DNA of 64,000 nt, from the NCBI RefSeq assembly GCF_001679925.1, contig NZ_LYUZ01000046.1, forward strand, positions 1-64,000, in the 5' to 3' direction. This document shows, in pieces, positions 23,774 to 46,283 of this stretch. The DNA comes from Leisingera sp. JC1 (GTDB taxonomy: Bacteria > Pseudomonadota > Alphaproteobacteria > Rhodobacterales > Rhodobacteraceae). The notes below the pieces were generated by a model. The model was not told where the DNA came from, searched no databases, and saw only the letters and a list, made by a program, of their open reading frames with translations. The position numbers and the translations under genes are program-made. How positions within the stretch are numbered: the stretch's first letter is position 1; the number at the start of each line of letters is the position of its first letter.

Positions 23774-26048
23774 CCCTAAGCACTTCCCAAATCCTCAGCG
23801 TGGTGAACGGCATGTCCACCTGCCGCACGCCGCGGTCCCAGACCGCGTCCTGCACCGCGTTTGCAACCGCTGCCAGCGCACCGACGGTGCCCGCCTCACC
23901 GCAGCCCTTCATCCCCATCGGGTTCTGTGTCGAAGGCACCGGCTCGGAGGTGAATCCAATCATGGGGACGCCGCTGGCCCGCGGCAAGGCATAGTCCATG
24001 AACGAAGCCGTGAGCAGCTGCCCGTCCTCATCGTAGACAACCCGCTCCAGCATGGCCTGTCCCAGCCCCTGCGCCACCCCGCCATGCACTTGGCCTTCGG
24101 CCAGCATCGGGTTGATCAGATTACCGAAATCGTCCACTACAGTGTAGCGCTCCACGCCGGCTTCTCCAGTCTCCGGATCGATAACAATTTCGGCAATGTG
24201 GGCGCCGTTCGGAAACGAGCGTCCCGGCAACCGGGCCCGCGCCGCGTGACGCAGCAAATCAGTGCGGCCTTGCGCGCGGGCCATCTCCGCCGCTTCCAGC
24301 ATAGTGGGGGTCAGGTTGGACCCCGGCGCCCGGAAGGTATCGCCATCGAACTCCACAGCGTCCGCGTCCACCCCCATCTCTTCCGCCAGGAACGGGGTAA
24401 AGGCGGCAATCATGGTTTCCACCGCCGCCAGCGTCGCGTTGGCCTGAGTGGTGACAGAGCGCGAGCCGCCGGTGCCGCCGCCCTGGGCGATGCGGTCGCT
24501 GTCGCCCTGGATCACCTGGATGCTGTCCGCCGGAATACCGCTCTGGTCGGCCAGGAACTGGGCATAGACGGTCTCATGCCCCTGTCCGTTGCTTTGCGTG
24601 CCGACATAGATGTTCACCCGGCCATCCTCCAGAAACTCCACTTCCGCGCCTTCTGAAGGATCGCCCAAAATGCTTTCGATATAGTAACAGACCCCAACGC
24701 CCCGGTACTTGCCGCGTTTACCATTTTCTGCGCGCCGGGCAGCGAATCCCTTCAGATCCGCCTCCTTGGCCGCCCGGCTCAGCACTTTGTCGAAATCGCC
24801 CACGTCATAGGTCTCCCCGGTCACGGTGCCGTAGGGAAACGCTGAAGGCTTGATGAAGTTCCGCCGCCGCAGTTCCAGGGGATCAACGCCCAGCTCGCGC
24901 GCGGCACGGTCCATCGCCCGTTCCAGCACATAGATCGCCTCGGGCCGCCCGGCGCCGCGGTAGGCGTCCACCTGGGTGGTGTTGGTATAGATCCCCTCCA
25001 CCTGCAGCCAGGCGGTTTGGATGTCATAGACCCCGGCCAGCACCCGGCTGAACAGCTGGGTCTGGATCGGCTGCCCGAAATGGGAGTTGTAGGCGCCAAG
25101 ATTGCAGCGAGTGCTGACCCGGTAGGCGGTGATCTTCAGATCTTTGTCAAAGGCCAGCTCCGCAAGCGAGGTCAGATCGCGGCCGCCATTGTCGCTCAGC
25201 ATCGCCTCGGTGCGGTCAGCAATCCAGAACACCGGGCGGCTCAGCACGGTGGCGGCATGGGCCACGGCGAAATACTCCGGATAGGCAAAGGCCTTCATGC
25301 CAAAGCCACCGCCGACGTCGGGCGTGGTGACTTTGATGTCATCCTCGTTCAACCCCAGCTTGGCTGCCAACTGGGATTTCATGCCCCAAACACCCTGACC
25401 GCCAAAGGTGAAATGCAGCCGACCCTGCTGCCATTCGGCAAAACAGCCGCGCGGCTCCATGGTGCTGACCATGATCCGGTTGTCCTCGACCTGCAGCGCG
25501 ACGGTATGGGCGGCGGTGCGGAAGGCTTCTTCGGTGGCCGCCTCATCCCCCATGCCCCAGTCAAAGGCCTTGTTGTCCGGCACACTGCCGTGCAAGGGCT
25601 CACCGCCGGGCATCAGGTCCAGCTTGACCGGCAGGTCGTCGATTTCCAACTCGATCAGCTCGCCTGCGTCACGGGCCTGATCCAAAGTCTCCGCGACCAC
25701 CACCGCAACCGGCTCGCCGACATAGCGCACCTTGTTGCGGGCCAGCATCGGGCGTTCCGGCGAGGCCCCGTCAGAGCCATCCCGGTTCTTGACCGTTGTG
25801 CCATCCATCGAAACGTTGATGCCAGCGGCCTCAAGATCCGCCAGGGTGATTACCGCATGGACGCCGTCTGCTTCCAGCGCGTCTTCGGTGTGCAGCGCTG
25901 TGATCACCCCATGCGCCACCGGGCTGCGCAGCACCCAGGCGCGCAGGGCATCCGCGGGGGCTGCGTCTTCGATATAGTTGCCCTGGCCGGTCAGGAACCT
26001 TACATCCTCGACCCGTTTTACCGGCTGGCTTTTCCCGAATTTGTCCAT
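23751..26048 (-). CDS. Xanthine dehydrogenase/CO dehydrogenase large-subunit-like molybdoprotein (CoxL form II type)
   Basis: 765-residue molybdenum-hydroxylase large subunit. It begins with the CoxL-type KRVEDVRFLTGQGNYIED, has DVGGGFGMK, the active-site loop AYRGAGRPEA (form II; form I CO dehydrogenase has AYxCSFR), and MGMKGCGEAGT with the catalytic Glu near the end. Complete N- and C-terminal Mo-pterin domains, typical length. Genes for the FAD (CoxM) and 2Fe-2S (CoxS) subunits are absent nearby, so electron partners must be encoded elsewhere. Sits between the PLP decarboxylase and DUF2235 genes, same strand, short gaps. Substrate unknown; CO oxidation is unlikely. Confidence 0.9.
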   Translation of the reverse strand: MDKFGKSQPVKRVEDVRFLTGQGNYIEDAAPADALRAWVLRSPVAHGVITALHTEDALEADGVHAVITLADLEAAGINVSMDGTTVKNRDGSDGASPERPMLARNKVRYVGEPVAVVVAETLDQARDAGELIELEIDDLPVKLDLMPGGEPLHGSVPDNKAFDWGMGDEAATEEAFRTAAHTVALQVEDNRIMVSTMEPRGCFAEWQQGRLHFTFGGQGVWGMKSQLAAKLGLNEDDIKVTTPDVGGGFGMKAFAYPEYFAVAHAATVLSRPVFWIADRTEAMLSDNGGRDLTSLAELAFDKDLKITAYRVSTRCNLGAYNSHFGQPIQTQLFSRVLAGVYDIQTAWLQVEGIYTNTTQVDAYRGAGRPEAIYVLERAMDRAARELGVDPLELRRRNFIKPSAFPYGTVTGETYDVGDFDKVLSRAAKEADLKGFAARRAENGKRGKYRGVGVCYYIESILGDPSEGAEVEFLEDGRVNIYVGTQSNGQGHETVYAQFLADQSGIPADSIQVIQGDSDRIAQGGGTGGSRSVTTQANATLAAVETMIAAFTPFLAEEMGVDADAVEFDGDTFRAPGSNLTPTMLEAAEMARAQGRTDLLRHAARARLPGRSFPNGAHIAEIVIDPETGEAGVERYTVVDDFGNLINPMLAEGQVHGGVAQGLGQAMLERVVYDEDGQLLTASFMDYALPRASGVPMIGFTSEPVPSTQNPMGMKGCGEAGTVGALAAVANAVQDAVWDRGVRQVDMPFTTLRIWEVLRDVSEAAE

Positions 26049-26096
26049 ACTCGCCCCCTGTCCGCGCTGACTGGCTGTCCGGGGGCGAGAGTACCC

Positions 26097-27248
26097 TTAG
26101 CTGGCCGGTTGTCCAGCCAGCTCAATCACCGTCGCCACGTCACTGAGGCCGTAGCCGTTGAACTGCGTGCTCATGGCGGAGGAATAGGCGCCTAGCCCCG
26201 GAAACAGGACATAGTCGCCGGTGGCTGCATCGCAGGGTAGAGGCAGACCGTCCGGCAGCCTGTCCAGGCTGTCGCAGGTGGGGCCGAAAACCACCCGCGG
26301 CTTGCGCTCGCCCGTGCGATGCTTGCCATCGGAACCAACGACCTCAACCCGCCCCGGCAGGCCCATGTCCCGGATATCGACCAAGCCCCCATAGATCCCA
26401 TCGTTGAGGAAGACCACCTCGCCTGCCTTGCGCATCCCCTTGATCCGCGCCGCCAGGGTAAAGCTTTCCGAGACCATGGCGCGCCCTGGCTCGCAGATCA
26501 GCTCCGGCTTCTCTGTGCCAAAGGCCGCATCTGCCGCTGCGCCGATGGCGGCAAAGACCTTCTCCAGGTCCGGCGCCACGCCGTCGCGGTTGGCGGCAAA
26601 GCCGCCGCCGACATTCAGGCGGGCGATCTGCACGCCGGCCTGATCAATGATCCGCTTGGCAGCGTGGACATATTCGACCCAGGCGCTCTCGTCCTCGCAC
26701 TGGGTGCCGGGGTGGAAGCACAGCGCCGGGGTCCAGCCGCGGGCGGCCACCTGTTTCAGGAGTTCCACTGCCTCTTCCGGTTCAGCGCCGAACTTGCTGC
26801 CGAAATCATAGGCAGCGCCAGCAACCGGCAAGGCAAAACGCACAGCGATTTCACGAGAGCGCGGCACCGCATCCAGCTTCTCCAGTTCGCTCAGCTCATC
26901 CACCGACCAGCTGGCCACACCGTGTTCGATACCGGCAACGATCTCCGCCTCAGACCGCATCGGGTTGTTGTAGTGCATCACCGCGTCGGGGCTGGCGGCG
27001 CGCACCGCCTCCATTTCCGCGGGCGAAGCCACGTCGAAGGCGGTGATCCCCGCCGCCACCAGATTGGACAGGACCGCGGGATGCGGGTTTGCTTTGACCG
27101 CGTAGGTTACCAAACCCGGAAAGCCTGCCCGGAACCTCAGCGCCACCTCATGCAAGACCCGCGGCGAGAAATACAGGATCGGATGATCCGGCGCGCTGCG
27201 GGCAAGGTGGGATTCAGGCGAAAGCCATAGCGGAGGAATCTGCTGCAT
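26097..27248 (-). CDS. Group IV PLP-dependent decarboxylase (ornithine/lysine decarboxylase-like)
   Basis: 383-residue alanine-racemase-fold decarboxylase. PLP Lys52 lies in YAVKANP; NVGGGFAANRDG and CEPGRAMVSES bind phosphate and substrate; catalytic Cys325 lies in GPTCDSLD. The length suits an ornithine or broad ornithine/lysine decarboxylase rather than the longer diaminopimelate or arginine enzymes; it would make putrescine or cadaverine. Start at 27248 has GAGGGTT upstream. Divergent from an Lrp-type regulator, followed by the CoxL-like gene. Polyamine production here may relate to the glutamine-synthetase-like cluster downstream. Confidence 0.88.
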   Translation of the reverse strand: MQQIPPLWLSPESHLARSAPDHPILYFSPRVLHEVALRFRAGFPGLVTYAVKANPHPAVLSNLVAAGITAFDVASPAEMEAVRAASPDAVMHYNNPMRSEAEIVAGIEHGVASWSVDELSELEKLDAVPRSREIAVRFALPVAGAAYDFGSKFGAEPEEAVELLKQVAARGWTPALCFHPGTQCEDESAWVEYVHAAKRIIDQAGVQIARLNVGGGFAANRDGVAPDLEKVFAAIGAAADAAFGTEKPELICEPGRAMVSESFTLAARIKGMRKAGEVVFLNDGIYGGLVDIRDMGLPGRVEVVGSDGKHRTGERKPRVVFGPTCDSLDRLPDGLPLPCDAATGDYVLFPGLGAYSSAMSTQFNGYGLSDVATVIELAGQPAS

Positions 27249-27319
27249 CGGGTAACCCTCATTCGTTTTACATATTTTGCGTGAAATGATCGTCGATTCC
27301 GGTCGGCACATTTACTATA

Positions 27320-27339
27320 GTGACGAAATCATCCGTCAC
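27320..27339. promoter_or_regulatory. Inverted repeat in the decarboxylase-lrp divergent promoter
   Basis: GTGACG-N8-CGTCAC, perfect 6-bp half-sites, 14 bp before the Lrp-type gene start. Candidate autoregulatory site. Confidence 0.5.
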
Positions 27340-27353
27340 ATCGCAGGTATTTT

Positions 27354-27791
27354 ATGCAATCCGACGAAACAGATCAGCGCCTTGTCACCCTGCTAAGGGA
27401 GAACGCCCGCCGCCCGGTGGCTGAGCTTGCCCGCCATCTGGGCCTGGCCCGAACCACAGTGCAGGCACGGATCGAGCGGCTGGAAACCACAGGTGTGGTC
27501 ACCGGCTACACCCTGAAATCCTCCGCAGCTGCCCGCCCGCCGCTGCAGGCGACTGTCCTGATGTCAATCGAACCGCGATCCGGACCGGAGGTTCTGGCCC
27601 GCCTGCGCAGCCTGCCCGGCGTCGAGGTGGTACACACGACCTCCGGCCGGTTCGACCTGCTGGCACAGGTGGTGGCCCAAAGCACGGCTGAACTCGATGA
27701 AACCATCGACAGTATCGCAGAGGCGCGCGGCGTGCGCTCATCTGAGAGCCTGATTCATCTGGCCACCAAACTGGACCGGACCGGGCAGTAA
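27354..27791 (+). CDS. Lrp/AsnC family transcriptional regulator
   Basis: 145-residue Lrp-type protein: HTH at residues ~5-55 (QRLVTLLRENARRPVAELARHLGLARTTVQARIERLE) and RAM effector domain. Divergent from the group IV decarboxylase gene with an inverted repeat between, so amino-acid-dependent control of that gene is the simplest reading. Confidence 0.92.
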   Translation: MQSDETDQRLVTLLRENARRPVAELARHLGLARTTVQARIERLETTGVVTGYTLKSSAAARPPLQATVLMSIEPRSGPEVLARLRSLPGVEVVHTTSGRFDLLAQVVAQSTAELDETIDSIAEARGVRSSESLIHLATKLDRTGQ

Positions 27792-27794
27792 GGC

Positions 27795-28676
27795 TCAGAC
27801 AGTTCTCACATAGTCCAGCAGCCAGTCCCGGAACAGCTTTGCTGCGGGACGCATGGAGCCCCGGTCCGGATAGATCAGATGGTATGCCTCCTGCCCCGGC
27901 ACTTCGACCTCCGGCAGGCAACGGACCAGCCCGGCGGCCCTAACCACTGCATCCGACGCTGGCGTCCGCGCCAGAGCAATCCCTAATCCCTGCGCCGACA
28001 GCTCTGCCGCCATCAAAGAATTGTCGGCAAAGAAATAGCGGGCTTGGCCGTGGGACAGGCGCAGGTTTTCAAACAGCTGCACCCAGCTGGCCCGATGAGT
28101 GGAGACCTCGATGAGGGTAAAACGGAACAGATCCTGGGGAGTTTGGATTTGCGTGGCAATCTCCGGCGGTGCCACCGGATAGAGCACCTCCCGCAGCAGC
28201 TCGTCGCCTTCGGTGCCGAACAGCGACGGGTTGCCAAAGACGATCTGCAAGTCGGTGAACTGGTTGGCAAAATCCGCCGCCATATTGCCTGTGCTGAGTG
28301 CCAAATTGACTTGGCTGTGCGCGGCTTGGAAGTCCGGCAGCCCGCGCGCCAGCACCCCATGGGCAAACAGCAGCACCGACTGCACAAACAGCCGCTGCTC
28401 GCGGCTTTCCCCGAACAGGCCAGTGGTGGCGGTTTCCAGCATCAAGAGCGACTGTTGCACTGAGGGCAAATAGGCCCGCCCGGCCTCCGTCAGCGTCACC
28501 GCATGGGCATGGCGCTGAAACAGCGGCGTGCCCAGTTGGGTTTCCAGCGCCTTTACCTGCTGGCTGACGGCAGCCGCCGACATGTTCAGCTGCGCCGCCG
28601 CGCGGGCAAAGCTTTCGGTGCGCGCCGCAGCCTCAAACACACGCAGCCAGTTCAGGGAGGGGATCCGGGTCGCCAT
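27795..28676 (-). CDS. LysR family transcriptional regulator (GcvA-like)
   Basis: 293-residue LysR regulator starting MATRIPSLNWLRVFEAAARTESFARAAAQLNMSAAAVSQQVKALE, the GcvA-like HTH. It resembles the LysR at 6058-6948 in its N-terminus and context: both are divergent from genes of a fatty-acid-hydroxylase-like membrane protein. A perfect inverted repeat lies 8 bp upstream of the start. Convergent with the Lrp gene, three bases apart. Confidence 0.92.
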   Translation of the reverse strand: MATRIPSLNWLRVFEAAARTESFARAAAQLNMSAAAVSQQVKALETQLGTPLFQRHAHAVTLTEAGRAYLPSVQQSLLMLETATTGLFGESREQRLFVQSVLLFAHGVLARGLPDFQAAHSQVNLALSTGNMAADFANQFTDLQIVFGNPSLFGTEGDELLREVLYPVAPPEIATQIQTPQDLFRFTLIEVSTHRASWVQLFENLRLSHGQARYFFADNSLMAAELSAQGLGIALARTPASDAVVRAAGLVRCLPEVEVPGQEAYHLIYPDRGSMRPAAKLFRDWLLDYVRTV

Positions 28677-36562: not shown

Positions 36563-37342
36563 TTGACCGATACAACGCCCGTTCTGCAAATCCGCGGCCT
36601 GCATAAATCCTATGGCGAGCTGGAAGTGATCAAAGGCGTCGACATCACCGCCAGGAAGGGCGACGTGGTGTCGCTGATCGGGTCCTCGGGGTCTGGAAAG
36701 TCCACTTTGCTGCGCTGCTGCAACCTTCTGGAAGACAGCCAGCAGGGTGAAATCCTGTTCAAGGGCGAGCCGATTACCTGGACCGGCCAGGGTCTGGCGC
36801 GCCGTCCGGCCGACGCCAAGCAGGTTCTGCGCATCCGTACCAACCTTTCGATGGTGTTCCAGCAGTTCAATCTTTGGGCCCATATGACCATCCTGCAAAA
36901 CGTGATGGAGGCGCCGGTCACCGTGCTGGGCCGCGACAAGGCCGAGGTCGAGGAGAAGGCCCGCTATTACCTGGCCAAGGTCGGCATCGGCGACAAATGC
37001 GACGTCTACCCGGCGCAGCTGTCCGGCGGCCAGCAACAGCGCGCGGCGATTGCCCGGGGCCTGTGCATGGAGCCCGAGGCGCTGCTGTTCGACGAACCCA
37101 CGTCTGCGCTGGACCCTGAGCTGGAGCAGGAAGTCGTGAAGGTGATCAAGGATCTGGCCGCCGAAGGCCGCACCATGCTGATCGTGACCCACGACATGAA
37201 GATGGCGGCTGATGTGTCCAGCCACGTGGTGTTCCTGCACCAGGGCCTGATCGAGGAAGAAGGCACGCCGGATGACGTCTTTGGCGGCACCCGCTCCGAA
37301 CGGTTGCGCGCGTTCTTGTCATCTACCCGCCACGAGCAATAA
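36563..37342 (+). CDS. Amino-acid-type ABC transporter ATP-binding protein
   Basis: 259-residue ATPase of the polar amino acid (HisP/ArtP-like) transporter class. Walker A GSSGSGKST at residues 40-48, signature LSGGQQQRAAIARG, Walker B ALLFDEPTSALDPE and the H-loop VTHDMK are all present. The only sensible start is TTG at 36563, with AGGGAC somewhat far upstream; no ATG or GTG exists before the first strand. First gene of a four-gene transporter operon. Confidence 0.93.
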   Translation: MTDTTPVLQIRGLHKSYGELEVIKGVDITARKGDVVSLIGSSGSGKSTLLRCCNLLEDSQQGEILFKGEPITWTGQGLARRPADAKQVLRIRTNLSMVFQQFNLWAHMTILQNVMEAPVTVLGRDKAEVEEKARYYLAKVGIGDKCDVYPAQLSGGQQQRAAIARGLCMEPEALLFDEPTSALDPELEQEVVKVIKDLAAEGRTMLIVTHDMKMAADVSSHVVFLHQGLIEEEGTPDDVFGGTRSERLRAFLSSTRHEQ

Positions 37343-37381
37343 TAACGAAGTCAATAACCAACCAAAAATGGGAGTAACTTG

Positions 37382-38089
37382 ATGAAATCTCTGATCCTTG
37401 GCACCGCCGCCCTGGCGCTGACCGCGGGCATGGGCCTGGCGGACACCGTGCGCCTGGGCACCGAAGGCGCCTATGCGCCGTGGAACTTCGTCAACGACGC
37501 CGGCGAGATCGACGGCTTCGAGCGCGAACTGGGCGATGAGCTGTGCAAGCGCGCCGAACTGACCTGCGAGTGGGTCAAGAACGACTGGGATTCGATCATT
37601 CCGAACCTGGTTTCCGGCAACTACGACACCATCATCGCCGGCATGTCGATCACCGACGAGCGCGACGAAGTCATTGACTTCACCCAGCCCTACACGCCGC
37701 CGGATCCGTCCGCCTATGTGGCGCAGTCGGCTGACGTCGACCTGGCAGGCGGCGTGATCGCGGCCCAGGCCACCACCATCCAGGCGGCCTTCATCGCCGA
37801 GCAGGGCTGGACCCTGGTCGAATTCGCAACCCCGGAAGAAACCGTCGCAGCCGTGCGCAACGGCGAAGCTGACGCGGTTCTGGCCGATAAGAGCTTCCTC
37901 GACACCGTGGTTGGCGACGACCTGGTGATGCTGGAGAAATCCGAATCGCTGGGCGGCGGCGTTGGCATGGGCTTCCGCGAGTCGGATGCAGAACTGCGCG
38001 GCAAGTTCGACGCGGCAATCCAGTCGATGAAAGACGACGGCTCGCTGAACGAACTGATCGCCAAGTGGGAAGTGTCCTCCCAGTGGTAA
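37382..38089 (+). CDS. Amino-acid-type ABC transporter substrate-binding protein
   Basis: 235-residue periplasmic binding protein of solute-binding family 3. N-terminal signal peptide (MKSLILGTAALALTAGMGLA, cleavage about residue 20), then TVRLGTEGAYAPWNFVNDAGEIDGFERELGDELCKRAELTCEWV, the classic family-3 start. NYDTIIAGMSITDERDEVIDFTQPY is the ligand region. The acidic pocket pattern suggests a basic amino acid or amine (arginine, ornithine, histidine or opine type), which is inference. ATG at 37382 with GGGAG upstream. A hairpin follows before the permeases. Confidence 0.93.
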   Translation: MKSLILGTAALALTAGMGLADTVRLGTEGAYAPWNFVNDAGEIDGFERELGDELCKRAELTCEWVKNDWDSIIPNLVSGNYDTIIAGMSITDERDEVIDFTQPYTPPDPSAYVAQSADVDLAGGVIAAQATTIQAAFIAEQGWTLVEFATPEETVAAVRNGEADAVLADKSFLDTVVGDDLVMLEKSESLGGGVGMGFRESDAELRGKFDAAIQSMKDDGSLNELIAKWEVSSQW

Positions 38090-38115
38090 TCTGATCCTGT
38101 TTCAGGATCTTGCAG

Positions 38116-38139
38116 GCCCGCGTGTCGCGGCACGCGGGC
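38116..38139 (+). terminator. Intra-operon hairpin after the binding-protein gene
   Basis: 9-bp perfect stem (38116-38124 with 38131-38139) between the abundant binding protein and the permease genes, with a weak T tract. Probably reduces or processes permease mRNA, as in many binding-protein operons. Confidence 0.65.
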
Positions 38140-38200
38140 CTCATTCATTCGCTTCCGGCGCCCAAGGCCCCGGGCGTGAGCTCAGAAAGACAGGGTACAT

Positions 38201-39085
38201 ATGTTTTCCTATTGCACGGACCCATCCACGCTTGAGGGGCTGAGCTGGCTCAGCTGCTACCTGACCACCGGCAAGCATGTGAACCTTTACATCTCGGTCT
38301 TTGTGGTGCTGACCCTGCTGGCGATCACCGCGCCGGTTGCACTGCTGTTCGGTTTCGGCGCTGCCAGTGCTGCCCGCTCGAAGTTCCTGCCACTGCGCTG
38401 GTTCGGCAAGGGCTACACCAGCATCGTGCGCGGCGTGCCGGACATTGCCTTCTTCCTGTTCTTCGTCATCGCGCTTGATCAAGCGTTTGAATGGATGCGC
38501 CACAAGGTGAAATGCCCCGACTGGGATCAGCCGATCCGCCAGGGTATCGACTTTGTGGTCTGCGACGCGGCCAAGCTGCCGCTCTCCACCTCGCCGCAAT
38601 GGGTGCATGAGACCTACGGCTTCTTCCTGGCGGTGCTGACCTTCTCCATCGTCTTTGGCGCTTTTGCCGCCAACGTCCTTTACGGTGCCATGCGCGCCGT
38701 GCCGCGCGCCCAGATCGAAACCGCCGAGGCCTATGGCATGACCCACCGCCAGGCGTTCTGGCGCATTCTGGTGCCGCAGATGTGGGTCTATGCCCTGCCC
38801 GGCCTGTCCAACCTGTGGATGGTGCTGATCAAATCCACGCCGCTCTTGTTCCTGCTGGGGGTTGAGGACATCGTCTATTGGGCGCGCGAACTGGGCGGCA
38901 CCAAGACTGCACGCTTCACCGATTACCCGCACCCGAACTGGCATGTCTGGTATTTCGCGGCGCTGCTGGTGTTCTACCTCTGCTTCACCAAAGTCTCCGA
39001 GATTGTTTTGGACCGCATCATGACCCGCCTGACCAAGGGCCAGGCCACCGCAGCAGGTGAAGCACAAAGAAAGGCAGCGGCATGA
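38201..39085 (+). CDS. Amino-acid-type ABC transporter permease 1
   Basis: 294-residue inner membrane permease with about five helices and the EAA loop ETAEAYGMTHRQAFWRILVPQMW, which contacts the ATPase. The segment GYTSIVRGVPDIAFFLFF is typical of the HisQ/ArtQ family. A 40-residue hydrophilic region (KVKCPDWDQPIRQGIDFVVCD) after helix 3 is longer than in enteric homologues. Overlaps permease 2 by 4 bases. Confidence 0.92.
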   Translation: MFSYCTDPSTLEGLSWLSCYLTTGKHVNLYISVFVVLTLLAITAPVALLFGFGAASAARSKFLPLRWFGKGYTSIVRGVPDIAFFLFFVIALDQAFEWMRHKVKCPDWDQPIRQGIDFVVCDAAKLPLSTSPQWVHETYGFFLAVLTFSIVFGAFAANVLYGAMRAVPRAQIETAEAYGMTHRQAFWRILVPQMWVYALPGLSNLWMVLIKSTPLLFLLGVEDIVYWARELGGTKTARFTDYPHPNWHVWYFAALLVFYLCFTKVSEIVLDRIMTRLTKGQATAAGEAQRKAAA

Positions 39086-39888
39086 GTTGCGTTGAAACCA
39101 TCCAGGCCTATGCCTTCCGCTCCCTGGGCTTTGGCGAACGGCTGCTGCCGCGCGGCGAATATACCCTGTGCGAGCATTTCACCCTGATCGGCTCCGGCCT
39201 GATCTGGAACGTCTATTTCGGCGCGCTGGCGCTGCTGACCGGCTTCTTCCTTGCAATGGCATTGGCAGTCGGCAAGTCCAGCCCCAACCCGCTGTGGCGC
39301 AAGCCCGCGGAGTGGTTCATCTTCGTGTTCCGCGGCAGCCCGCTGTTCATCCAGTTCTTCTTCGCCTACGCCTGTTTCCTCAGCCTTAAGGGCGTCTCCA
39401 GCTTCTTTGACCCGTTCACCTCCGCCTGGCTGGGGGCGCTGGTCGTGCTGTTCTGCAATACCGCGGCCTACTCGGGCGAGATCTTTTACGGCGCGCTCCT
39501 GTCGATCCCCAAGGGCGATATCGAGGCCGCCGACGCCTATGGCATGACCGGCTGGAACCGCTTCCGCCGCATCACCTTCCCGACCATGCTGCGGCTTGCC
39601 TGGCCTGCCTACACCAACGAGGCGATCTTCCTGTTCCACGCAACCACGCTGGTGTTCTTTTCCGGCTTCCCGGCCTGGCGGCAGCAGGGCGACGCGCTTT
39701 ATTACGCCAGCTATTTCGCGGACAAGACCTTCAACCCGTTTGTCCCCTACCCGATCCTGGCCTTCTACTTCATACTGCTGACGCTGGTGATCATTTCCCT
39801 GTTCGGCTTTGTGAACCGGCGGCTGAACCGCCACCTGCCGCAAGAACGGCGCGCCAAGCCGAGGCTGAGGATCAGCCTGATCCGTTAA
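39082..39888 (+). CDS. Amino-acid-type ABC transporter permease 2
   Basis: 268-residue partner permease with the EAA loop EAADAYGMTGWNRFRRITFPTMLR and FVFRGSPLFIQFFFAY, typical of HisM/ArtM. Together with permease 1 it forms the heterodimeric channel. ATGA overlap with the preceding gene; a strong terminator follows the stop. Confidence 0.92.
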   Translation: MSCVETIQAYAFRSLGFGERLLPRGEYTLCEHFTLIGSGLIWNVYFGALALLTGFFLAMALAVGKSSPNPLWRKPAEWFIFVFRGSPLFIQFFFAYACFLSLKGVSSFFDPFTSAWLGALVVLFCNTAAYSGEIFYGALLSIPKGDIEAADAYGMTGWNRFRRITFPTMLRLAWPAYTNEAIFLFHATTLVFFSGFPAWRQQGDALYYASYFADKTFNPFVPYPILAFYFILLTLVIISLFGFVNRRLNRHLPQERRAKPRLRISLIR

Positions 39889-39892
39889 TCAC

Positions 39893-39926
39893 AAAATGGC
39901 TCCTTCGGGAGCCATTTTTGTTTTGA
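39893..39926 (+). terminator. Rho-independent terminator of the ABC transporter operon
   Basis: 11-bp stem (39893-39903 with 39908-39918), TTCG tetraloop and T-rich tail directly after the last permease gene. Confidence 0.93.
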
Positions 39927-40012
39927 ACAAAGCTGCGGCCAGCTGCTCCGCTTGGCCTGATGCGCCCGCCAGCACTGGCAATCCACCAGCGGTGCGGCCA
40001 CCGCACCAAACT

Positions 40013-40022
40013 TTTGATCAAA
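40013..40022. promoter_or_regulatory. TTTGATCAAA palindrome upstream of the first glutamine-synthetase-like gene
   Basis: Same 10-bp palindrome as at 41468-41477 before the amidotransferase gene. It lies 62 bp before the start at 40084. Candidate operator of a shared regulator. Confidence 0.5.
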
Positions 40023-40083
40023 TTATCTTGGCGAATGGATTTCCATAGGCTAGGGTTGGCGCAACGCACTTATGGAGCCCCAA

Positions 40084-41403
40084 ATGGACTTGCCCGGACT
40101 CAAGACAATCCGCATTGCCGCCTGTGACATGAACGGCCAGATGCGCGGCAAGCGGCTGCCCGCAAGCCAGGCAGGCAAGCTGGAAAGCGGCGGTGCACGG
40201 ATGCCGGTTTCCGCCCTCAACGTCGACCTTTGGGGCCGCGATGTCGAAGACAGCCCGCTGGTCTTTGAGACCGGCGATGCCGATGGCGTCATGCTGCCCA
40301 CCGAGCGCGGCCCGGTGCCGATGCCCTGGCTCAAGACCGCCTCGGCACTGGTGCCGATGGCAATGTACTGGGAAGATGGCTCCCCCTTCCTCGGCGATCC
40401 CCGCCATGTGCTGGGTGAGGTGCTGTCGCGCTACACCGCGCGCGGCTGGACTGTTGTCGCTGCGACCGAGATGGAATTCAGCCTGCTGGACGACAGCGGC
40501 GCCCGCCCGGCCCCGCCGATCGATCCGCTCACAGGGCGCGAGCTGGATCAGCAATCGGTGCTGTCGATTGCCGAACTCGATGCCTTTGACGAGTTTTTCT
40601 CCGACCTCTACGAGGGCGCTGAGGCGATGGGCATTCCCGCCCAGGACGCCATCTCCGAGGCCGGCCTCGGGCAGTTCGAAATCAACCTCCTCCACCAGGA
40701 GGCGATGCGCGCCGCAGATGATGCGTGGCTGTTTAAGGCCTTGGTCAAAGGGCTTGCCCGCAAACACGGATTTGCCGCGACCTTCATGGCCAAACCCTAT
40801 GCCGAGGAAGCCGGCAACGGCATGCATGTGCATTTCTCGGTCGAGGATCAGGACGGCAACAACATCTTTGACGACGGCAGTGACAAAGGGTCTGATCTGC
40901 TGATGCACGCGGTTGCCGGCTGTCTGGCAGCGATGCCCGCCAGCTCGCTGATCTTTGCCCCGCACGGCAACTCCTATGACCGGCTGGTGCCCGGCGCCCA
41001 CGCCCCGGTCAGCGCCGCTTGGGCGTATGAAAACCGCACTGCCGCCATCCGTATTCCCGGCGGCAGCCCCAAGGCGCGCCGGATCGAACACCGGGTCGCA
41101 GGCGGCGACATCAACCCCTACCTGATGCTTGCCACAGTTCTCGGCGCGGCCTTGGCCGGGATTGAGGACAAGATGCAGCCGCCAGCGCCTTCCGAGGGCA
41201 ACATTTATGAGATTGAGGGCCTGCCGCAGTTGGCCGCCGACTGGGAGACCGCGATCAACTGGTTTGACACCGACCCGCTGATTGCACGCATCCTGCCGGA
41301 CCTCGCCATCCGCAACCTTGTGATGACCAAGCGGCAGGAACTCATGGGCTTTGCGGAACGCCCTAAGGAGAGCCATTGGCTGTCCTGGCTAGAGGCGGTA
41401 TAA
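40084..41403 (+). CDS. Glutamine synthetase family protein 1 (PuuA-like)
   Basis: 439-residue enzyme of the glutamine synthetase superfamily, shorter at the N-terminus than GlnA. Metal and ATP-site blocks are visible: ATEMEFSLL, SEAGLGQFEINLL, GNGMHVHFS, YENRTAAIRIPGG and RIEHRVAGGDINPYL. Members beside amidotransferases and amine oxidoreductases act as gamma-glutamyl-amine ligases such as PuuA. Start at 40084 is favoured over 40072 because GGAG lies 7 nt upstream. Probably the first gene of the catabolic cluster reaching to 46283. Confidence 0.88.
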   Translation: MDLPGLKTIRIAACDMNGQMRGKRLPASQAGKLESGGARMPVSALNVDLWGRDVEDSPLVFETGDADGVMLPTERGPVPMPWLKTASALVPMAMYWEDGSPFLGDPRHVLGEVLSRYTARGWTVVAATEMEFSLLDDSGARPAPPIDPLTGRELDQQSVLSIAELDAFDEFFSDLYEGAEAMGIPAQDAISEAGLGQFEINLLHQEAMRAADDAWLFKALVKGLARKHGFAATFMAKPYAEEAGNGMHVHFSVEDQDGNNIFDDGSDKGSDLLMHAVAGCLAAMPASSLIFAPHGNSYDRLVPGAHAPVSAAWAYENRTAAIRIPGGSPKARRIEHRVAGGDINPYLMLATVLGAALAGIEDKMQPPAPSEGNIYEIEGLPQLAADWETAINWFDTDPLIARILPDLAIRNLVMTKRQELMGFAERPKESHWLSWLEAV

Positions 41404-41465
41404 ACCCGCTTTGCCTGCGGCGCCCGGCAAGCCCCTTGCCCGCCCCGGCATCCTCGGCTAGGCTC

Positions 41466-41479
41466 AATTTGATCAAATT
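41466..41479. promoter_or_regulatory. AATTTGATCAAATT palindrome upstream of the amidotransferase gene
   Basis: 14-bp perfect palindrome 9 bp before the ATG at 41489, sharing the core TTTGATCAAA with the site at 40013-40022. It suggests an internal promoter and a common regulator. Confidence 0.55.
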
Positions 41480-41488
41480 TGGTGACAC

Positions 41489-42169
41489 ATGAAAATCGGC
41501 ATCCTGCAAACCGGCCACTCTCCCGAAGATCTGTTCGGAAACTTCGGCGACTACGACGCCATGTTCCGCGACATGCTGGACGGCAACGGGTTTGAGTTTC
41601 AGACTTGGGCGGTTGTGGACGGTATCCTGCCTGACGGGCCTCAGGACGCCGACGCCTGGCTGATCACCGGCTCCAAGCACGGCGCCTATGAAGACCACGC
41701 CTGGATCCCGCCGCTGGAGGATCTGATCCGCGCCATCCATGCACGCAAACAGCCGCTGGCCGGCATCTGCTTCGGCCATCAGATCATCGCACAGGCGCTT
41801 GGCGGCAAGGTCGAAAAGTTCGAGGGCGGCTGGGCCGTCGGCCCGGTCACCTATCAGGTGGACGGCAAGAATCTGACCCTGAACGCCTGGCACCAGGACC
41901 AGGTGGTGAAACTGCCCGAAGACGCCCGCGTGCTGGGCGGCAATGATTTTTGCCGGAACGGCATCCTCGCCTATGGCGACCACATCATCTCCTGGCAGCC
42001 CCACCCCGAATTCCCCAATGCCTTCGTCGGCGGCCTGATCGAAAAGCGCGGCCGCGGCGTGGTGCCCGACGACCTGCTGGACCGTGCAGCCGCTGAGCTG
42101 GACACCCCCGTGGACAACCAAGATATCGCAACCCTCCTCGCAGAATTTTACAGGAAAGAGAGGACCTAA
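41489..42169 (+). CDS. Class I glutamine amidotransferase-like hydrolase
   Basis: 226-residue stand-alone class I amidotransferase domain. Catalytic Cys is in AGICFGHQ and the His/Glu pair in WQPHPEF. Not fused to a synthetase, as expected for a gamma-glutamyl hydrolase; in the Puu pathway a similar fold (PuuD) releases glutamate from gamma-glutamyl-GABA, though this protein looks closer to the GMP-synthase-like amidotransferases. Lies between two glutamine-synthetase-like genes; its stop overlaps the next start (TAATG). Confidence 0.86.
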   Translation: MKIGILQTGHSPEDLFGNFGDYDAMFRDMLDGNGFEFQTWAVVDGILPDGPQDADAWLITGSKHGAYEDHAWIPPLEDLIRAIHARKQPLAGICFGHQIIAQALGGKVEKFEGGWAVGPVTYQVDGKNLTLNAWHQDQVVKLPEDARVLGGNDFCRNGILAYGDHIISWQPHPEFPNAFVGGLIEKRGRGVVPDDLLDRAAAELDTPVDNQDIATLLAEFYRKERT

Positions 42170-43527
42170 TGTCAGCCTGGCTCGACACCCTTCCCGAAGC
42201 AGCAAAAGCCTATCTGGAGGGGCGTCGTCTCGACGAAGTCGAATGCGTTATCTCGGACCTTCCCGGTATCGCCCGTGGCAAGGCGGTACCGGCATCGAAA
42301 TTCGCAAAGACCGATTACTTTCATCTGCCCGACAGCATCTTCTACCAGACCATCACCGGGGACTGGGCCGATGCCGCGGATGAAGACGGCTGGATCGAAA
42401 AGGACATGACGCTGAAACCGGACATGTCGACGGCCACCGCTGCGCCCTGGACCGGTGACTGGACCCTGCAGGTGATTCACGACGCTTATGACCGGCATGA
42501 TCAGCCGATCCCCTACAGCCCGCGCAACGTGCTGAAGCGGGTGGTGCAACTGTACCGCGACAAGGGCTGGAAACCGGTTGTGGCGCCGGAGATGGAGTTC
42601 TTCCTGGTTGCCCGCAACATCGACCCGGCCAAGGAGATCGAGCCGATGATGGGCCGCTCCGGCCGCCCGGCAGCGGCGCGGCAGGCCTATTCGATGACCG
42701 CGGTGGACGAGTTCGGACCCGTCATCGACGACATCTACGACTTTGCCGAGGCGCAGGGCTTCGAGATTGACGGCATCACCCAGGAGGGCGGCGCCGGCCA
42801 GCTGGAGATCAACCTGCGCCACGGCGATCCGGTCAAGCTGGCCGATGAGGTGTTCTACTTCAAGCGCCTGATCCGCGAGGCGGCACTGCGCCACGACTGC
42901 TTTGCCACCTTCATGGCCAAGCCAATCGAGGATGAGCCGGGCTCGGCCATGCATATCCACCATTCGATCCTGGATGTGGAATCCGGCCAGAACATCTTCT
43001 CCGGCCCGCAGGGCGGCGAGACGGATGCGTTCTACAACTTCATCGCCGGTTTGCAGAACCACCTGCCTGCCGGTCTGGCTGTGATGGCGCCCTATGTGAA
43101 CTCCTACCGCCGCTACGTGAAGGACCACGCCGCGCCGATCAACCTGGAATGGGCGCGCGACAACCGCACCACCGGCATCCGCGTGCCGCTGTCTGGACCC
43201 GAGGCCAGGCGGGTGGAGAACCGCATCGCCGGCATGGACTGCAACCCCTACCTGGGCATCGCCCTGTCGCTGGCCTGCGGCTATCTCGGCCTGATCAACG
43301 AGGAACGCCCGCGCAAGCAGTTCAAGGGCGACGCCTATGAGGGCGAAGGCGATATCCCGCAGGTGATGGGCCAGGCGCTGGACCTGTTCGACGAGGCCAA
43401 GGAGCTGCACGAGGTTCTGGGTCCGGACTTTGCCCGCGTCTACTCAATCGTGAAGCGCGCGGAGTATGAGGAGTTCCTGCAGGTCATCTCCCCCTGGGAG
43501 CGCGAGCATCTGCTGATGAACGTCTGA
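42169..43527 (+). CDS. Glutamine synthetase family protein 2 (PuuA-like)
   Basis: 452-residue second member of the family, only moderately similar to protein 1: APEMEFFLVARNID, TQEGGAGQLEINLRHGD, GSAMHIHHS, RDNRTTGIRVPLSGPEARRVENRIAGMDCNPYL. Together the two proteins suggest either two different substrates or a hetero-oligomer. Overlaps the amidotransferase stop; followed by a 28-bp perfect palindrome and the FAD oxidoreductase gene. Confidence 0.9.
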   Translation: MSAWLDTLPEAAKAYLEGRRLDEVECVISDLPGIARGKAVPASKFAKTDYFHLPDSIFYQTITGDWADAADEDGWIEKDMTLKPDMSTATAAPWTGDWTLQVIHDAYDRHDQPIPYSPRNVLKRVVQLYRDKGWKPVVAPEMEFFLVARNIDPAKEIEPMMGRSGRPAAARQAYSMTAVDEFGPVIDDIYDFAEAQGFEIDGITQEGGAGQLEINLRHGDPVKLADEVFYFKRLIREAALRHDCFATFMAKPIEDEPGSAMHIHHSILDVESGQNIFSGPQGGETDAFYNFIAGLQNHLPAGLAVMAPYVNSYRRYVKDHAAPINLEWARDNRTTGIRVPLSGPEARRVENRIAGMDCNPYLGIALSLACGYLGLINEERPRKQFKGDAYEGEGDIPQVMGQALDLFDEAKELHEVLGPDFARVYSIVKRAEYEEFLQVISPWEREHLLMNV

Positions 43528-43532
43528 AGCCT

Positions 43533-43560
43533 CTGGCGCTGCACCGCGGTGCAGCGCCAG
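43533..43560. repeat. 28-bp perfect palindrome between genes
   Basis: CTGGCGCTGCACCG followed directly by its reverse complement, 6 bp after the stop of the second glutamine-synthetase-like gene. It can form a long hairpin in RNA with almost no loop, but no T tract follows. Confidence 0.7.
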
Positions 43561-43634
43561 TGCAATTGATTATCCGGACAAAGAAGAACAGCGGGATCCC
43601 TTCCGGGAACTCCCGCCAACAGGTGAGGTGCGGG

Positions 43635-44945
43635 ATGGCGATGAACCTGCTCTATTCCAATGACCGCAAAGGCGAATATCCAAACAGCTGGTATGCGGCG
43701 ACCGCTGCGCCGCTGGAGCGGTTTCCGGCGCTGAAAAACGATGTAAGGGCGGACGTCTGCATCGTTGGAGGCGGCTACACGGGCCTGTCCGCCGCATTGC
43801 ATCTGGCGGAGGCCGGCCTGTCCGTTGTGCTGCTGGAGGCGCAGCGGGTGGGCTTTGGCGCCTCTGGCCGTAACGGCGGCCAGCTGGGCAGCGGTCAGCG
43901 GATGGAGCAGGACGGGCTGGAAAAGCTGGTCGGTTTGGACGATGCCCGCAAGCTCTGGGATCTGGCCGAGGGCGCCAAGGACCTTGTGAAGGATCTGGTG
44001 GCCCGCCACGGCATCGAATGCCACCTGAAGCCCGGCGTCTCGCACGCCTGTTTCTCCAAGGGGGAGACCTCGCATGAGCACGCCTATGCGGAACATCTGC
44101 AAACCCGCTACGGCTATGATCAGATCGAACTGCTGGACCGGGACGCGATGCAGGCGCTCTGCCCGTCACCTGCCTACGTTGGCGGCTCCCTCGACATGGG
44201 CGCGGGCCATCTGCACCCGCTGGCTTATGTGCTGGGCCTGGCCCGCGCAGCTGCCGCTGCCGGAACTGTGATCCACGAAGACAGCGAAGTTCTGGACATT
44301 CAGGAAGGCAGCCAGTTGCGTGTCCGCACCGCGGGCGGCACCGTAACAGCAGACCACCTGGTCCTGGCTTGCAACGGCTACCTCGGCGGGCTGAACGGCC
44401 AGGTTGCGGCACGGGTGATGCCGATCAACAACTTCGTGGTGGCAACGGAACCGCTGGGGGATGACGCCGCCCGGGTGCTGACCCGTGACGTCGCCGTCGC
44501 GGACACCAAATTCGTGGTCAACTACTTCCGCCTCAGCCACGACAAGCGGCTGCTGTTCGGCGGCGGTGAAAGCTATGGCTACCGCTTCCCCTCCGACATC
44601 CAGGCCACCGTGCGAAAGCCGATGGCTGAGATATTCCCGCATCTGAAGGATGTGAAGATCGACTATGCCTGGGGCGGCACTCTGGGCATCACTATGAAAC
44701 GGATGCCCTACCTGGCACGGCTGGCGCCCAATGTTCTGACCGCCTCAGGCTACTCCGGCCACGGTGTCGGCACTGCGACCCATGCGGGCCAGCTGATGGC
44801 GCAGGCGATCCAGGGACAGGCTGAGGGGTTTGATACCCTGGCCCGCGTCCCTGCCCCGCGCTTCCCCGGCGGGCCGCGGATGCGCTCGCCGCTGCTGGTG
44901 CTGGCGATGACCTGGTTTGCCATGCGCGACCGGCTGGGCGTCTGA
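43635..44945 (+). CDS. FAD-dependent oxidoreductase (DadA/PuuB-like)
   Basis: 436-residue flavoprotein of the DAO family. The dinucleotide-binding motif VCIVGGGYTGLSAALHLAEAG and the SGRNGGQLGSGQRMEQDGLEKL block are typical of PuuB, gamma-glutamylputrescine oxidase; GHLHPLAYVLGLARAA and GYSGHGVGTATHAGQLMAQAI complete the FAD and active-site regions. It would oxidise an amine or gamma-glutamyl-amine to an aldehyde. ATG at 43635 has GAGG upstream; the frame also runs back to a GTG at 43560. Confidence 0.9.
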   Translation: MAMNLLYSNDRKGEYPNSWYAATAAPLERFPALKNDVRADVCIVGGGYTGLSAALHLAEAGLSVVLLEAQRVGFGASGRNGGQLGSGQRMEQDGLEKLVGLDDARKLWDLAEGAKDLVKDLVARHGIECHLKPGVSHACFSKGETSHEHAYAEHLQTRYGYDQIELLDRDAMQALCPSPAYVGGSLDMGAGHLHPLAYVLGLARAAAAAGTVIHEDSEVLDIQEGSQLRVRTAGGTVTADHLVLACNGYLGGLNGQVAARVMPINNFVVATEPLGDDAARVLTRDVAVADTKFVVNYFRLSHDKRLLFGGGESYGYRFPSDIQATVRKPMAEIFPHLKDVKIDYAWGGTLGITMKRMPYLARLAPNVLTASGYSGHGVGTATHAGQLMAQAIQGQAEGFDTLARVPAPRFPGGPRMRSPLLVLAMTWFAMRDRLGV

Positions 44946-45077
44946 GCCGGTTTCCGCGCAACTCCGCAACAATTCTGTGAAATTTTGCCGGGCGCAGCAG
45001 ATTCCGCCGCGTCCGGTCTTGGCATCCTGAAATCTTAGTTTTACATTTCCCAAAGCAACAATTCAGGATTTTGAAAT

Positions 45078-46283
45078 ATGGCTCTGCCGCCCAACGTTCA
45101 TGACGCTGAACCCATTCCCGCAGCCGCCCGCGACGCAATCGACGCTCTGATGCAATCGGGTGACCTGTTCCGCTACACCGCGCCCCAGGATGCGCCGGTC
45201 ACGCTGCTGGAACAGGAATACGCGGAGCTTCTGGGCAGCAAATATGCGCTGGCGGTTTCCTCCTGCTCAGCAGCACTGTTCCTGTCGCTCAAGGCGCTTG
45301 GCCTGCCCCGCGATGCCCGCGTGCTGATCCCGGCCTTCACCTTTGCTGCCGTGCCCTCCTCTGTCGTGCATGCCGACTGTGTGCCGGTGCTGTGCGAGGT
45401 GGCTGACAACTACCGTATCGACATGGCTGATTTCGAGGCCAAGCTGGACAATGTACAGGCAGTGATCATCAGCCATATGCGCGGCCATACTTCTGACATG
45501 GACGCGATCATGGCGCTGTGCGATGCCCGCGGCATCCCGGTGGTCGAGGATGCAGCCCATTCGCTTGGCACCACCTGGAACGGCCGGAACATCGGCACCC
45601 TCGGCAAGGTGGGCTGTTTCTCCTTCCAGTCCTACAAGATGGTCAACGCCGGCGAAGGCGGCATCCTGATCACCGACGACGCCGACCTGATCGCCCGCGC
45701 CGTGATCATGTCCGGTGCCTATGAGCACAACTGGAAAAAGCACAAAGGCCCGCATGGAGAAAACACCCCGGACCTGGAGCAAGCCTTTGCCAAGTGGCAG
45801 AACCAGCTGCCGCTCTATAACCTGCGGATGAGCAACCTGTCCGCCGCGGTGATCCGCCCGCAGCTGCCGGAACTGGCGCGCCGTGTGCGTGACGGTCTCG
45901 CCAACCACGACTATGTGGCGGAGCGGCTGAACGCCTCCCCCTTCTTTGACGTGCCTGCACCGCTGGGGCCGGAGCGCCGGGCACCGGATTCGATCCAGTT
46001 CAACCTAGTGGAACTGAGCGAAGCCCAGACCCGCGCCTTTGCCGCCGCAGCAGAGGCCAAGGGCGTCAAGGTACAAGTCTTCGGGCTGTCCACCGACAAC
46101 GCCCGCGCCTTCTGGAACTGGCAGTTCCTGGGCAACGTCCCTGAGCTGCCCCGGACCCGTGACATGCTGATGAAGGCCTGCGACGTGCGCCTGCCGGTGC
46201 GGCTGACCCGGGCGGAACTGGACGTGATTGCGGACATCCTGCTGGCTGCCGCTCAGGAAACAATGGGCAAGGCTGCCGCCTGA
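45078..46283 (+). CDS. DegT/DnrJ/EryC1/StrS family PLP aminotransferase
   Basis: 401-residue fold-type I aminotransferase of the DegT/AHBA-synthase family. YALAVSSCSAALFLSLKALG is the N-terminal PLP-phosphate region, VVEDAAHSLGTTWNGRNIGTLG holds the Asp, and FSFQSYKMVNAGEGG holds the PLP lysine. The family normally acts on nucleotide sugars or cyclitols, so its presence at the end of an amine-catabolic cluster is unexpected. 132 bp after the oxidoreductase with possible own promoter; a terminator follows. Confidence 0.9.
   Translation: MALPPNVHDAEPIPAAARDAIDALMQSGDLFRYTAPQDAPVTLLEQEYAELLGSKYALAVSSCSAALFLSLKALGLPRDARVLIPAFTFAAVPSSVVHADCVPVLCEVADNYRIDMADFEAKLDNVQAVIISHMRGHTSDMDAIMALCDARGIPVVEDAAHSLGTTWNGRNIGTLGKVGCFSFQSYKMVNAGEGGILITDDADLIARAVIMSGAYEHNWKKHKGPHGENTPDLEQAFAKWQNQLPLYNLRMSNLSAAVIRPQLPELARRVRDGLANHDYVAERLNASPFFDVPAPLGPERRAPDSIQFNLVELSEAQTRAFAAAAEAKGVKVQVFGLSTDNARAFWNWQFLGNVPELPRTRDMLMKACDVRLPVRLTRAELDVIADILLAAAQETMGKAAA

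Follow-up and report, generated by a model that had tools for sequence, protein, structure and literature searches.

Positions 36563 to 46283 of a 64,000-nucleotide stretch of Leisingera sp. JC1 (contig NZ_LYUZ01000046.1, positions 1 to 64,000; hereafter the window) contain nine open reading frames, as an earlier note on this sequence had described; all are on the plus strand. They encode an ATP-binding cassette (ABC) transporter, two glutamine synthetase (GS)-like proteins (GS1 and GS2), a class I glutamine amidotransferase-like hydrolase (GAT), an oxidoreductase of the flavin adenine dinucleotide (FAD)-dependent DAO type, and an aminotransferase of the DegT/DnrJ/EryC1/StrS family (DegT). We propose that these genes constitute a gamma-glutamylation operon of the Rhodobacteraceae, which uses a cationic amino acid taken up from outside, or the diamine formed from it, as a source of nitrogen and carbon; the probability of this reading is put at roughly 0.45. 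L-Lysine is the best single guess for the substrate. We infer both the substrate and the DegT step, and the function assigned to DegT is the least secure element of the proposal.

The arrangement of the genes in other genomes shows that they form a real unit. For this comparison, 138 loci around DegT or GS2 were examined, 98 of which were picked by DegT similarity (the 80 best DegT matches of a named-genome collection and 18 more), while the other 40 were taken around GS2 genes located far from, or found without, DegT. The set is biased toward DegT, and some species are present twice. Members were counted by tblastn with a GS2 threshold of at least 60% identity; the gene calls for the loci came from a simple script and include antisense and fused frames, and the main counts use tblastn and similarity searches of genome collections. 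The order ABC transporter–GS1–GAT–GS2–FAD oxidase–DegT is conserved, with 119 of the 121 GS2-holding loci colinear with the window, a linkage far beyond chance, and the block of five enzymes postulated in the earlier note is thereby borne out. GAT was found in 118 of these 121 loci, GS1 in 105, the FAD gene in 104, the binding protein gene in 84, DegT in 82, and a class-III aminotransferase gene in 11. GAT and GS2 are the most constant pair (118/121); GS2 starts a median of 3 bases after the last codon of GAT (n = 118), usually with a one-base overlap, and the two genes share one base in the window as well. GS1, the oxidase, the transporter, and DegT are each absent from some loci. The idea that both GS genes are always required, and with it the earlier description of two ligases as a fixed feature, had to be given up, since GS1 was not found in 16 of the 121 loci, some of which may hold a diverged or cut copy.

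At the level of the family, an even draw of 198 Rhodobacteraceae genomes was surveyed. DegT was detected at 61% identity or more in 126 of them, five of these matches being partial. A GS2 match occurs in 181 genomes, the best 150 of which were listed, so that the number of genomes without GS2 is an upper bound; G169, for example, is counted as lacking GS2, though a GS2 gene (66% identity) is located near its DegT gene. Among the matches listed, GS2 and DegT are both present in 110 genomes, and they lie at most 15 kb apart in 87 of these (Fisher p for co-occurrence 1.6e-6, kinship ignored). The best named DegT match is from Leisingera aquaemixtae (94% identity), which identifies the host as a roseobacter. 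In a draw of 385 genomes of the class, DegT was found at E 1e-120 in five, four of them Rhodobacteraceae; a wide distribution of DegT beyond the family was rejected on this basis, a single genome of another family (G335, 65% identity) being left. Relatives of GS2 at E 1e-100 were present in 51 of 240 genomes of the class, including three Rhodobacteraceae. Proteins of the GS2 type are thus spread widely through the class, and DegT, carried by so few of the class genomes, appears to be an addition specific to the family.

As the earlier note had supposed, the two GS-like proteins appear to be gamma-glutamyl-amine ligases and not glutamine synthetases. GS1 (40072..41403; Gln-synt_C, PF00120, 327.6 bits) and GS2 (42169..43527; 330.9 bits), the latter being the predicted main ligase, share with the presumed GlnA of this genome the invariant residues E141, E143, E206, E213, H262, R315, R333, E350, and R352 (GS2 numbering). 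The flap glutamate in the GlnA motif IPGFEAP, which we take to be E327 in Salmonella numbering and to mark the use of ammonia, is replaced by alanine in GS2 and by histidine in GS1. Because the residues for ATP, metal, and glutamate are kept and the ammonia-flap glutamate is lost, both proteins are predicted to act on amines other than ammonia. Neither reached the cut-off of the GlnA model.

Altogether six GS genes are present in the genome, namely, GS1, GS2, and those of contigs C79, C114, C1, and C86. The C79 gene has the best Pfam score of the six and is the presumed glnA. The C114 protein is of the GmaS type, with 650 bits to the type III model TIGR03105 (cut-off 469.6); GS1 and GS2 resemble this gamma-glutamylamide ligase of the methylamine pathway in being GS-like but remain below the same cut-off (209.1 and 218.8 bits). 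On C1 (L232:6689-14128), the GS-like gene is clustered with TRAP-permease-like, iron-alcohol-dehydrogenase-like, and aldehyde-dehydrogenase-like genes, a grouping that suggests an independent route for an amine or amino alcohol. On C86 (L234:7051-10110), the GS-like domain ends an open frame of 1020 residues, with about 560 residues ahead of the domain.

The protein encoded between the two ligase genes, GAT (41489..42169), scored 45.9 bits with the GATase family PF00117 and 22.2 bits with Peptidase_C26 (PF07722, cut-off 20.5). Among solved structures, it is closest to chains of gamma-glutamyl peptidase 1 (1.8e-21), and because of this match it is the candidate for removing a gamma-glutamyl tag. 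The genome encodes a strong PF07722 protein elsewhere (C80:9967); no GS gene is present on that contig. The FAD oxidoreductase (43560..44945, starting either with the listed GTG at 43560 or with an ATG at 43635) belongs to the DAO superfamily (237.3 bits); no PuuB model appeared among the NCBIfam matches listed (25 of 52).

In E. coli, putrescine is degraded via the Puu pathway by a ligase (PuuA), an oxidase (PuuB), a dehydrogenase (PuuC), and a hydrolase (PuuD). The locus resembles this system in the adjacency of a ligase, an FAD oxidase, and a glutamine-amidotransferase-type hydrolase, and the logic of protection, oxidation, and release is probably shared. It differs in that GS1 and GS2 score far below the cut-off of the PuuA model NF045547 (172.6 and 166.5 of 650 bits), in that the hydrolase is nearer to PF00117 than to Peptidase_C26, in the lack of a PuuC counterpart, and in the second ligase, the amino-acid ABC importer, and DegT, all of which are added here. 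The poor fit to Puu and the lack of an aldehyde dehydrogenase among the nine genes agree with the earlier note. That note would have abandoned its proposal if a complete puu pathway had been present elsewhere in the genome and the linkage had been lost; the linkage is kept, and apart from the presumed glnA the genome has five GS genes, no product of which reaches the PuuA cut-off. GS-like paralogues that glutamylate amines are also represented by PauA–PauD of Pseudomonas and by GlnA2, GlnA3, and GlnA4 of Streptomyces; in the portions of the literature on these systems that were available, neither a DegT protein nor a lysine-type importer is named for them.

The substrate is suggested by the periplasmic binding protein (37379..38089; SBP_bac_3), which is of the lysine/arginine/ornithine/opine type. 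It shares 75% identity over 215 residues with the structure 3i6v, the title of which reads "periplasmic His/Glu/Gln/Arg/opine family-binding protein from Silicibacter pomeroyi in complex with ly..."; the ligand is presumably lysine. The 3i6v protein in turn shares 93% identity with the binding protein encoded in operon L054 and 87% to 90% with its counterparts in four operons of Ruegeria (L062, L063, L072, and L080). Subsequent matches are lysine/arginine/ornithine (LAO) and opine (NocT) binding-protein structures. TIGR01096 is the best-scoring model, though with 166.6 bits it stays below its cut-off (256.35). Residues E29, Y32, W70, R95, and D170 are invariant in 40 aligned sequences, and E29, R95, and D170 presumably occupy the positions of the amino-acid-binding residues of LAO, judged by LAO numbering. 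Structure prediction gave a pLDDT of 84.3 with the 40-row alignment and of 37.6 with the single sequence. Because of the likeness to 3i6v, the LAO- and opine-type relatives, and the three invariant residues, the binding protein points to a cationic amino acid; an amino sugar, which the earlier note had considered, is disfavored by a protein of this type. Lysine catabolism in a related organism has been followed in Phaeobacter inhibens (Rhodobacteraceae), for which a 13C study describes parallel cadaverine/5-aminopentanoate and pipecolate routes as well as six strongly labeled compounds without identity (PMC5653290).

The catabolism of opines or other N-substituted basic amino acids, with the FAD enzyme acting as an opine oxidase, is improbable. 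After 3i6v, the nearest binding proteins of solved structure include NocT (nopaline) and OccJ (octopine), with 29% to 35% identity, but 3i6v itself is much closer at 75%. Opine breakdown is not known to require GS-like ligases.

The route favored here, in which the cationic amino acid brought in by the transporter, or its diamine, is gamma-glutamylated, would proceed in five steps. The ABC system would import the amino acid, the cationic nature of which is suggested because the closely related binding-protein structure carries the "ly..." ligand. GS2, helped or varied by GS1, would then join the gamma-carboxyl group of glutamate to an amino group of the substrate at the expense of ATP, as would be allowed by the residues kept for ATP, metal, and glutamate and by the loss of the glutamate at the ammonia site. 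In the Puu pathway, the glutamyl tag stops the subsequent aldehyde from cyclizing, as it would here. The FAD enzyme would oxidatively deaminate the free amine to the aldehyde, and the GATase-type hydrolase would strip off the gamma-glutamyl tag. In the weakest step, DegT, alone or together with a class-III enzyme, might transaminate the amine or amino-acid product or act directly on the substrate amine. The aldehyde dehydrogenase would have to be encoded at another place in the genome. A form of the pathway in which the side-chain or alpha amino group of lysine or ornithine is gamma-glutamylated before oxidation and DegT serves as an omega- or alpha-aminotransferase on a small amino acid is conceivable, with the odds well against it.

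Second in rank to the cationic amino-acid or diamine route is a Pau- or Puu-like polyamine route, in which putrescine, cadaverine, or spermidine, either internal or taken up via PotFGHI, would be glutamylated, oxidized, and released, while the adjoining transporter would supply a precursor only; we regard it as possible, if rather unlikely. A GS-like protein and an FAD oxidase are the core of Puu and Pau. Among 20 loci with GS2 relatives from outside the family (38% to 52% identity), seven have an FAD gene of this type in the same stretch of 6 to 20 kb, two of which (L179 and L184) also hold a GS1-like gene, and blocks resembling a Pot transporter, judged by gene length and clustering only, flank L173 and L186. 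In 11 Ruegeria loci, the enzyme genes are present and those of the transporter are not. Furthermore, R. pomeroyi possesses a separate uptake system, potFGHI (SPO3466-3469), which a mutant links to cadaverine, putrescine, and spermidine (PMC10130141). Opposed to this route are the binding protein, which is of the amino-acid type and not of the PotF/PotD type, the large distance from the PuuA model, and the lack of an aldehyde dehydrogenase in the cluster. The earlier note had also pointed to a supposed diamine-producing decarboxylase upstream (26097-27311). This pyridoxal phosphate (PLP)-dependent decarboxylase (PF02784) scored 121 bits with the lysA model (cut-off 298), and only 5 of 77 genomes, counting the present one, have it or a relative of it at most 30 kb from GS2. 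The linkage was consequently rejected, though most of the 87 matches are only 50% to 60% identical and their orthology is unsure. A molybdopterin protein of the aldehyde-oxidase/CODH kind adjoins the decarboxylase and a LysR-type regulator in the window (23751-28676); it scored 558.9 bits with the glyceraldehyde dehydrogenase alpha model, the cut-off of which is 790.

The DegT protein (45078..46283; DegT_DnrJ_EryC1, PF01041, 204.1 bits, cut-off 19.8) belongs to a subclade nearly confined to the Rhodobacteraceae. K187, within SFQSYK, and D158 are invariant in 23 of 23 orthologues, and K187 is probably the PLP lysine, as its position within the motif suggests. DegT matched seven NCBIfam models, all with scores far below the respective cut-offs (for example, PseC with 139 of 423.5), and the closest solved structures are mostly sugar and cyclitol enzymes. 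These structures, together with the mostly biosynthetic function of DegT enzymes, would suit a biosynthetic module in which the gamma-glutamyl group shields an amine while DegT adds an amino group, after which GAT deprotects the product. Such a module is very unlikely, being the least probable of the explanations weighed here, since the unit contains an importer and an FAD amine oxidase, the sister DegT clade occurs in catabolic operons, and single members are absent from many loci.

DegT might also be a positional neighbor with its own job, for example, in amino-acid or sulfonate transamination, leaving GS1–GAT–GS2–FAD as the pathway; we consider this doubtful. Consistent with such a separation, DegT does not lie within 15 kb of GS2 in 23 of the 110 genomes that have both among the matches listed (some on split contigs), and 40 genomes have GS2 but not DegT among these matches. 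The FAD–DegT gap, 132 bases in the window, has the largest median of the gaps between enzyme genes (137, n = 74, compared with 63 for GS1–GAT and 46 for GS2–FAD) and contains a promoter-like site (45019-45047), which is at chance level; the sister clade, moreover, works in cysteate operons. Against it, DegT lies downstream of GS2 or the FAD gene in the same direction in 82 of the 121 loci of the DegT-biased set and near GS2 in the 87 genomes mentioned above, and another aminotransferase takes or shares its place. In 8 of the 121 loci, all without DegT, a class-III aminotransferase gene comes after the FAD gene, and the three class-III proteins that were scanned exceed the cut-off of NF004767 (PRK06105 subfamily; 529 to 551 bits, cut-off 517). 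Within 12 kb of the 150 GS2 genes listed, DegT alone was found in 73 cases, a class-III gene alone in 12, and both in 14. A strict mutual replacement was rejected because of these 14 genomes. Since there is also no clear exclusion at the genome level (both in 24, one only in 102 and 21; Fisher p 0.11), the two aminotransferases are read as partly redundant members of the operon.

Several observations weigh against the proposed operon function. The ligand word in the 3i6v title could be read only as "ly...", and the ligand may stem from the host used for expression. An importer of lysine does not have to serve the adjoining enzymes, and a terminator-like hairpin follows the importer genes. Eleven Ruegeria loci have TetR, Fer2, and molybdopterin genes where the importer would be. 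Neither aminotransferase is present within 12 kb in 51 of the 150 GS2 genes listed, a count inflated by split draft contigs, and in many genomes DegT lies away from the operon or the operon lacks DegT. The lack of a clear genome-level exclusion between DegT and the class-III enzyme makes the replacement argument weak.

The next DegT relatives seen are plasmid-borne and share 36% to 41% identity over residues 24-377, except for those of G335 (65%) and of a Roseovarius plasmid (61%). A match was present in 915 records, and neighborhoods were taken from H1 and from H2–H11 (loci L240–L246 and L259–L261). In H4–H11, which are eight of the ten latter records, a D-cysteine desulfhydrase gene is located directly upstream of the DegT relative and an amino acid racemase gene directly downstream. 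The same three genes are present in a different order in H2, whereas H3 contains the racemase and an exporter but no annotated desulfhydrase. The desulfhydrases of H5 and H9 score above the cut-off of the CuyA model (549 and 527 bits, cut-off 450), as does the H5 racemase with CuyB (290 bits, cut-off 190). These cysteate operons resemble the window locus in carrying a DegT-family aminotransferase, but they have sulfonate transporters and CuyA/CuyB, and no GS, GAT, or such oxidase is annotated beside the DegT relative. The tie to sugar or cyclitol chemistry drawn in the earlier note is therefore not upheld, the sister clade being located in cysteate operons on the ten plasmid records examined and not in sugar clusters. 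Because the sister-clade protein is encoded between cuyA-type and racemase genes, it may be a candidate for the aminotransferase converting sulfopyruvate to cysteate, an enzyme that is called unknown for R. pomeroyi in a 2024 paper (PMC11382572). A literature search, based largely on titles and the opening lines of abstracts, yielded no report linking DegT with cysteate. In the tree, the second DegT of the genome (L235, C80:42245-43378) falls into the cysteate-type clade, the root being unsure owing to long branches to the two outgroup DegT proteins. This gene adjoins glmS, glmU, and phosphoglycolate-phosphatase-like and acyl-CoA-dehydrogenase-like genes; no sulfonate gene was found among the four neighbors scanned.

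The remaining transporter genes encode a HisP/EhuA-like ATPase (36563..37342; PF00005), with a predicted TTG start as listed and 328 bits to the HisP model (cut-off 466), and two permeases, ArtQ/HisQ-like (38201..39085) and HisM-like (39082..39888), both identified by Pfam BPD and NCBIfam matches. Directly 3' of the second permease gene, a terminator-like hairpin of 11 pairs is located on the plus strand (39893..39918). Terminator-like sites in the region are not above chance (8 observed, 8.5 in shuffles); this hairpin has the most pairs of the eight and is placed at a gene end. Because of its position behind the second permease gene, the transporter and the enzymes may form two separate transcription units.

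The composition of the operon varies among the loci. That of L040 comprises only the transporter, GS2, and DegT. Two loci without the usual FAD gene have another flavin enzyme encoded between permease and GS1, which is a monoamine-oxidase-type flavin amine oxidase in L055 (PF01593, 227 bits) and a different DAO-type enzyme in L054. In the 11 Ruegeria loci (L061, L064–L071, L073, and L075; one scanned), genes for TetR, a 2Fe-2S (Fer2) protein, and a molybdopterin-binding protein replace the transporter upstream of GS1. The latter pair could be an aldehyde oxidoreductase filling the missing step. An unusual neighborhood was observed beside the DegT gene of L103 (2742-9274), with a PF00282 decarboxylase, a P450-like frame, a reversed GAT-like frame, and a divergent GS gene.

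The search of the literature, made largely in titles and abstract openings with subscription journals mostly uncovered, returned no description of an operon of this kind or of a role for its DegT. The row of genes occurs in many marine bacteria and likely serves the breakdown of an amine after tagging with glutamate. An arrayed mutant library of Ruegeria pomeroyi exists (PMC10130141). In the less probable form of the pathway described above, with DegT acting on a small amino acid, the wider DegT subclade would represent a catabolic branch, devoted to small molecules, within a family associated with sugar chemistry; one of its arms would be the DegT of this operon and the other the missing sulfopyruvate aminotransferase of cysteate metabolism. 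If the main proposal is right, a DegT-family aminotransferase would act on small catabolic substrates rather than on nucleotide sugars, and a large share of the Rhodobacteraceae would possess a glutamylation pathway, new to the literature, for a compound common in dissolved organic nitrogen.

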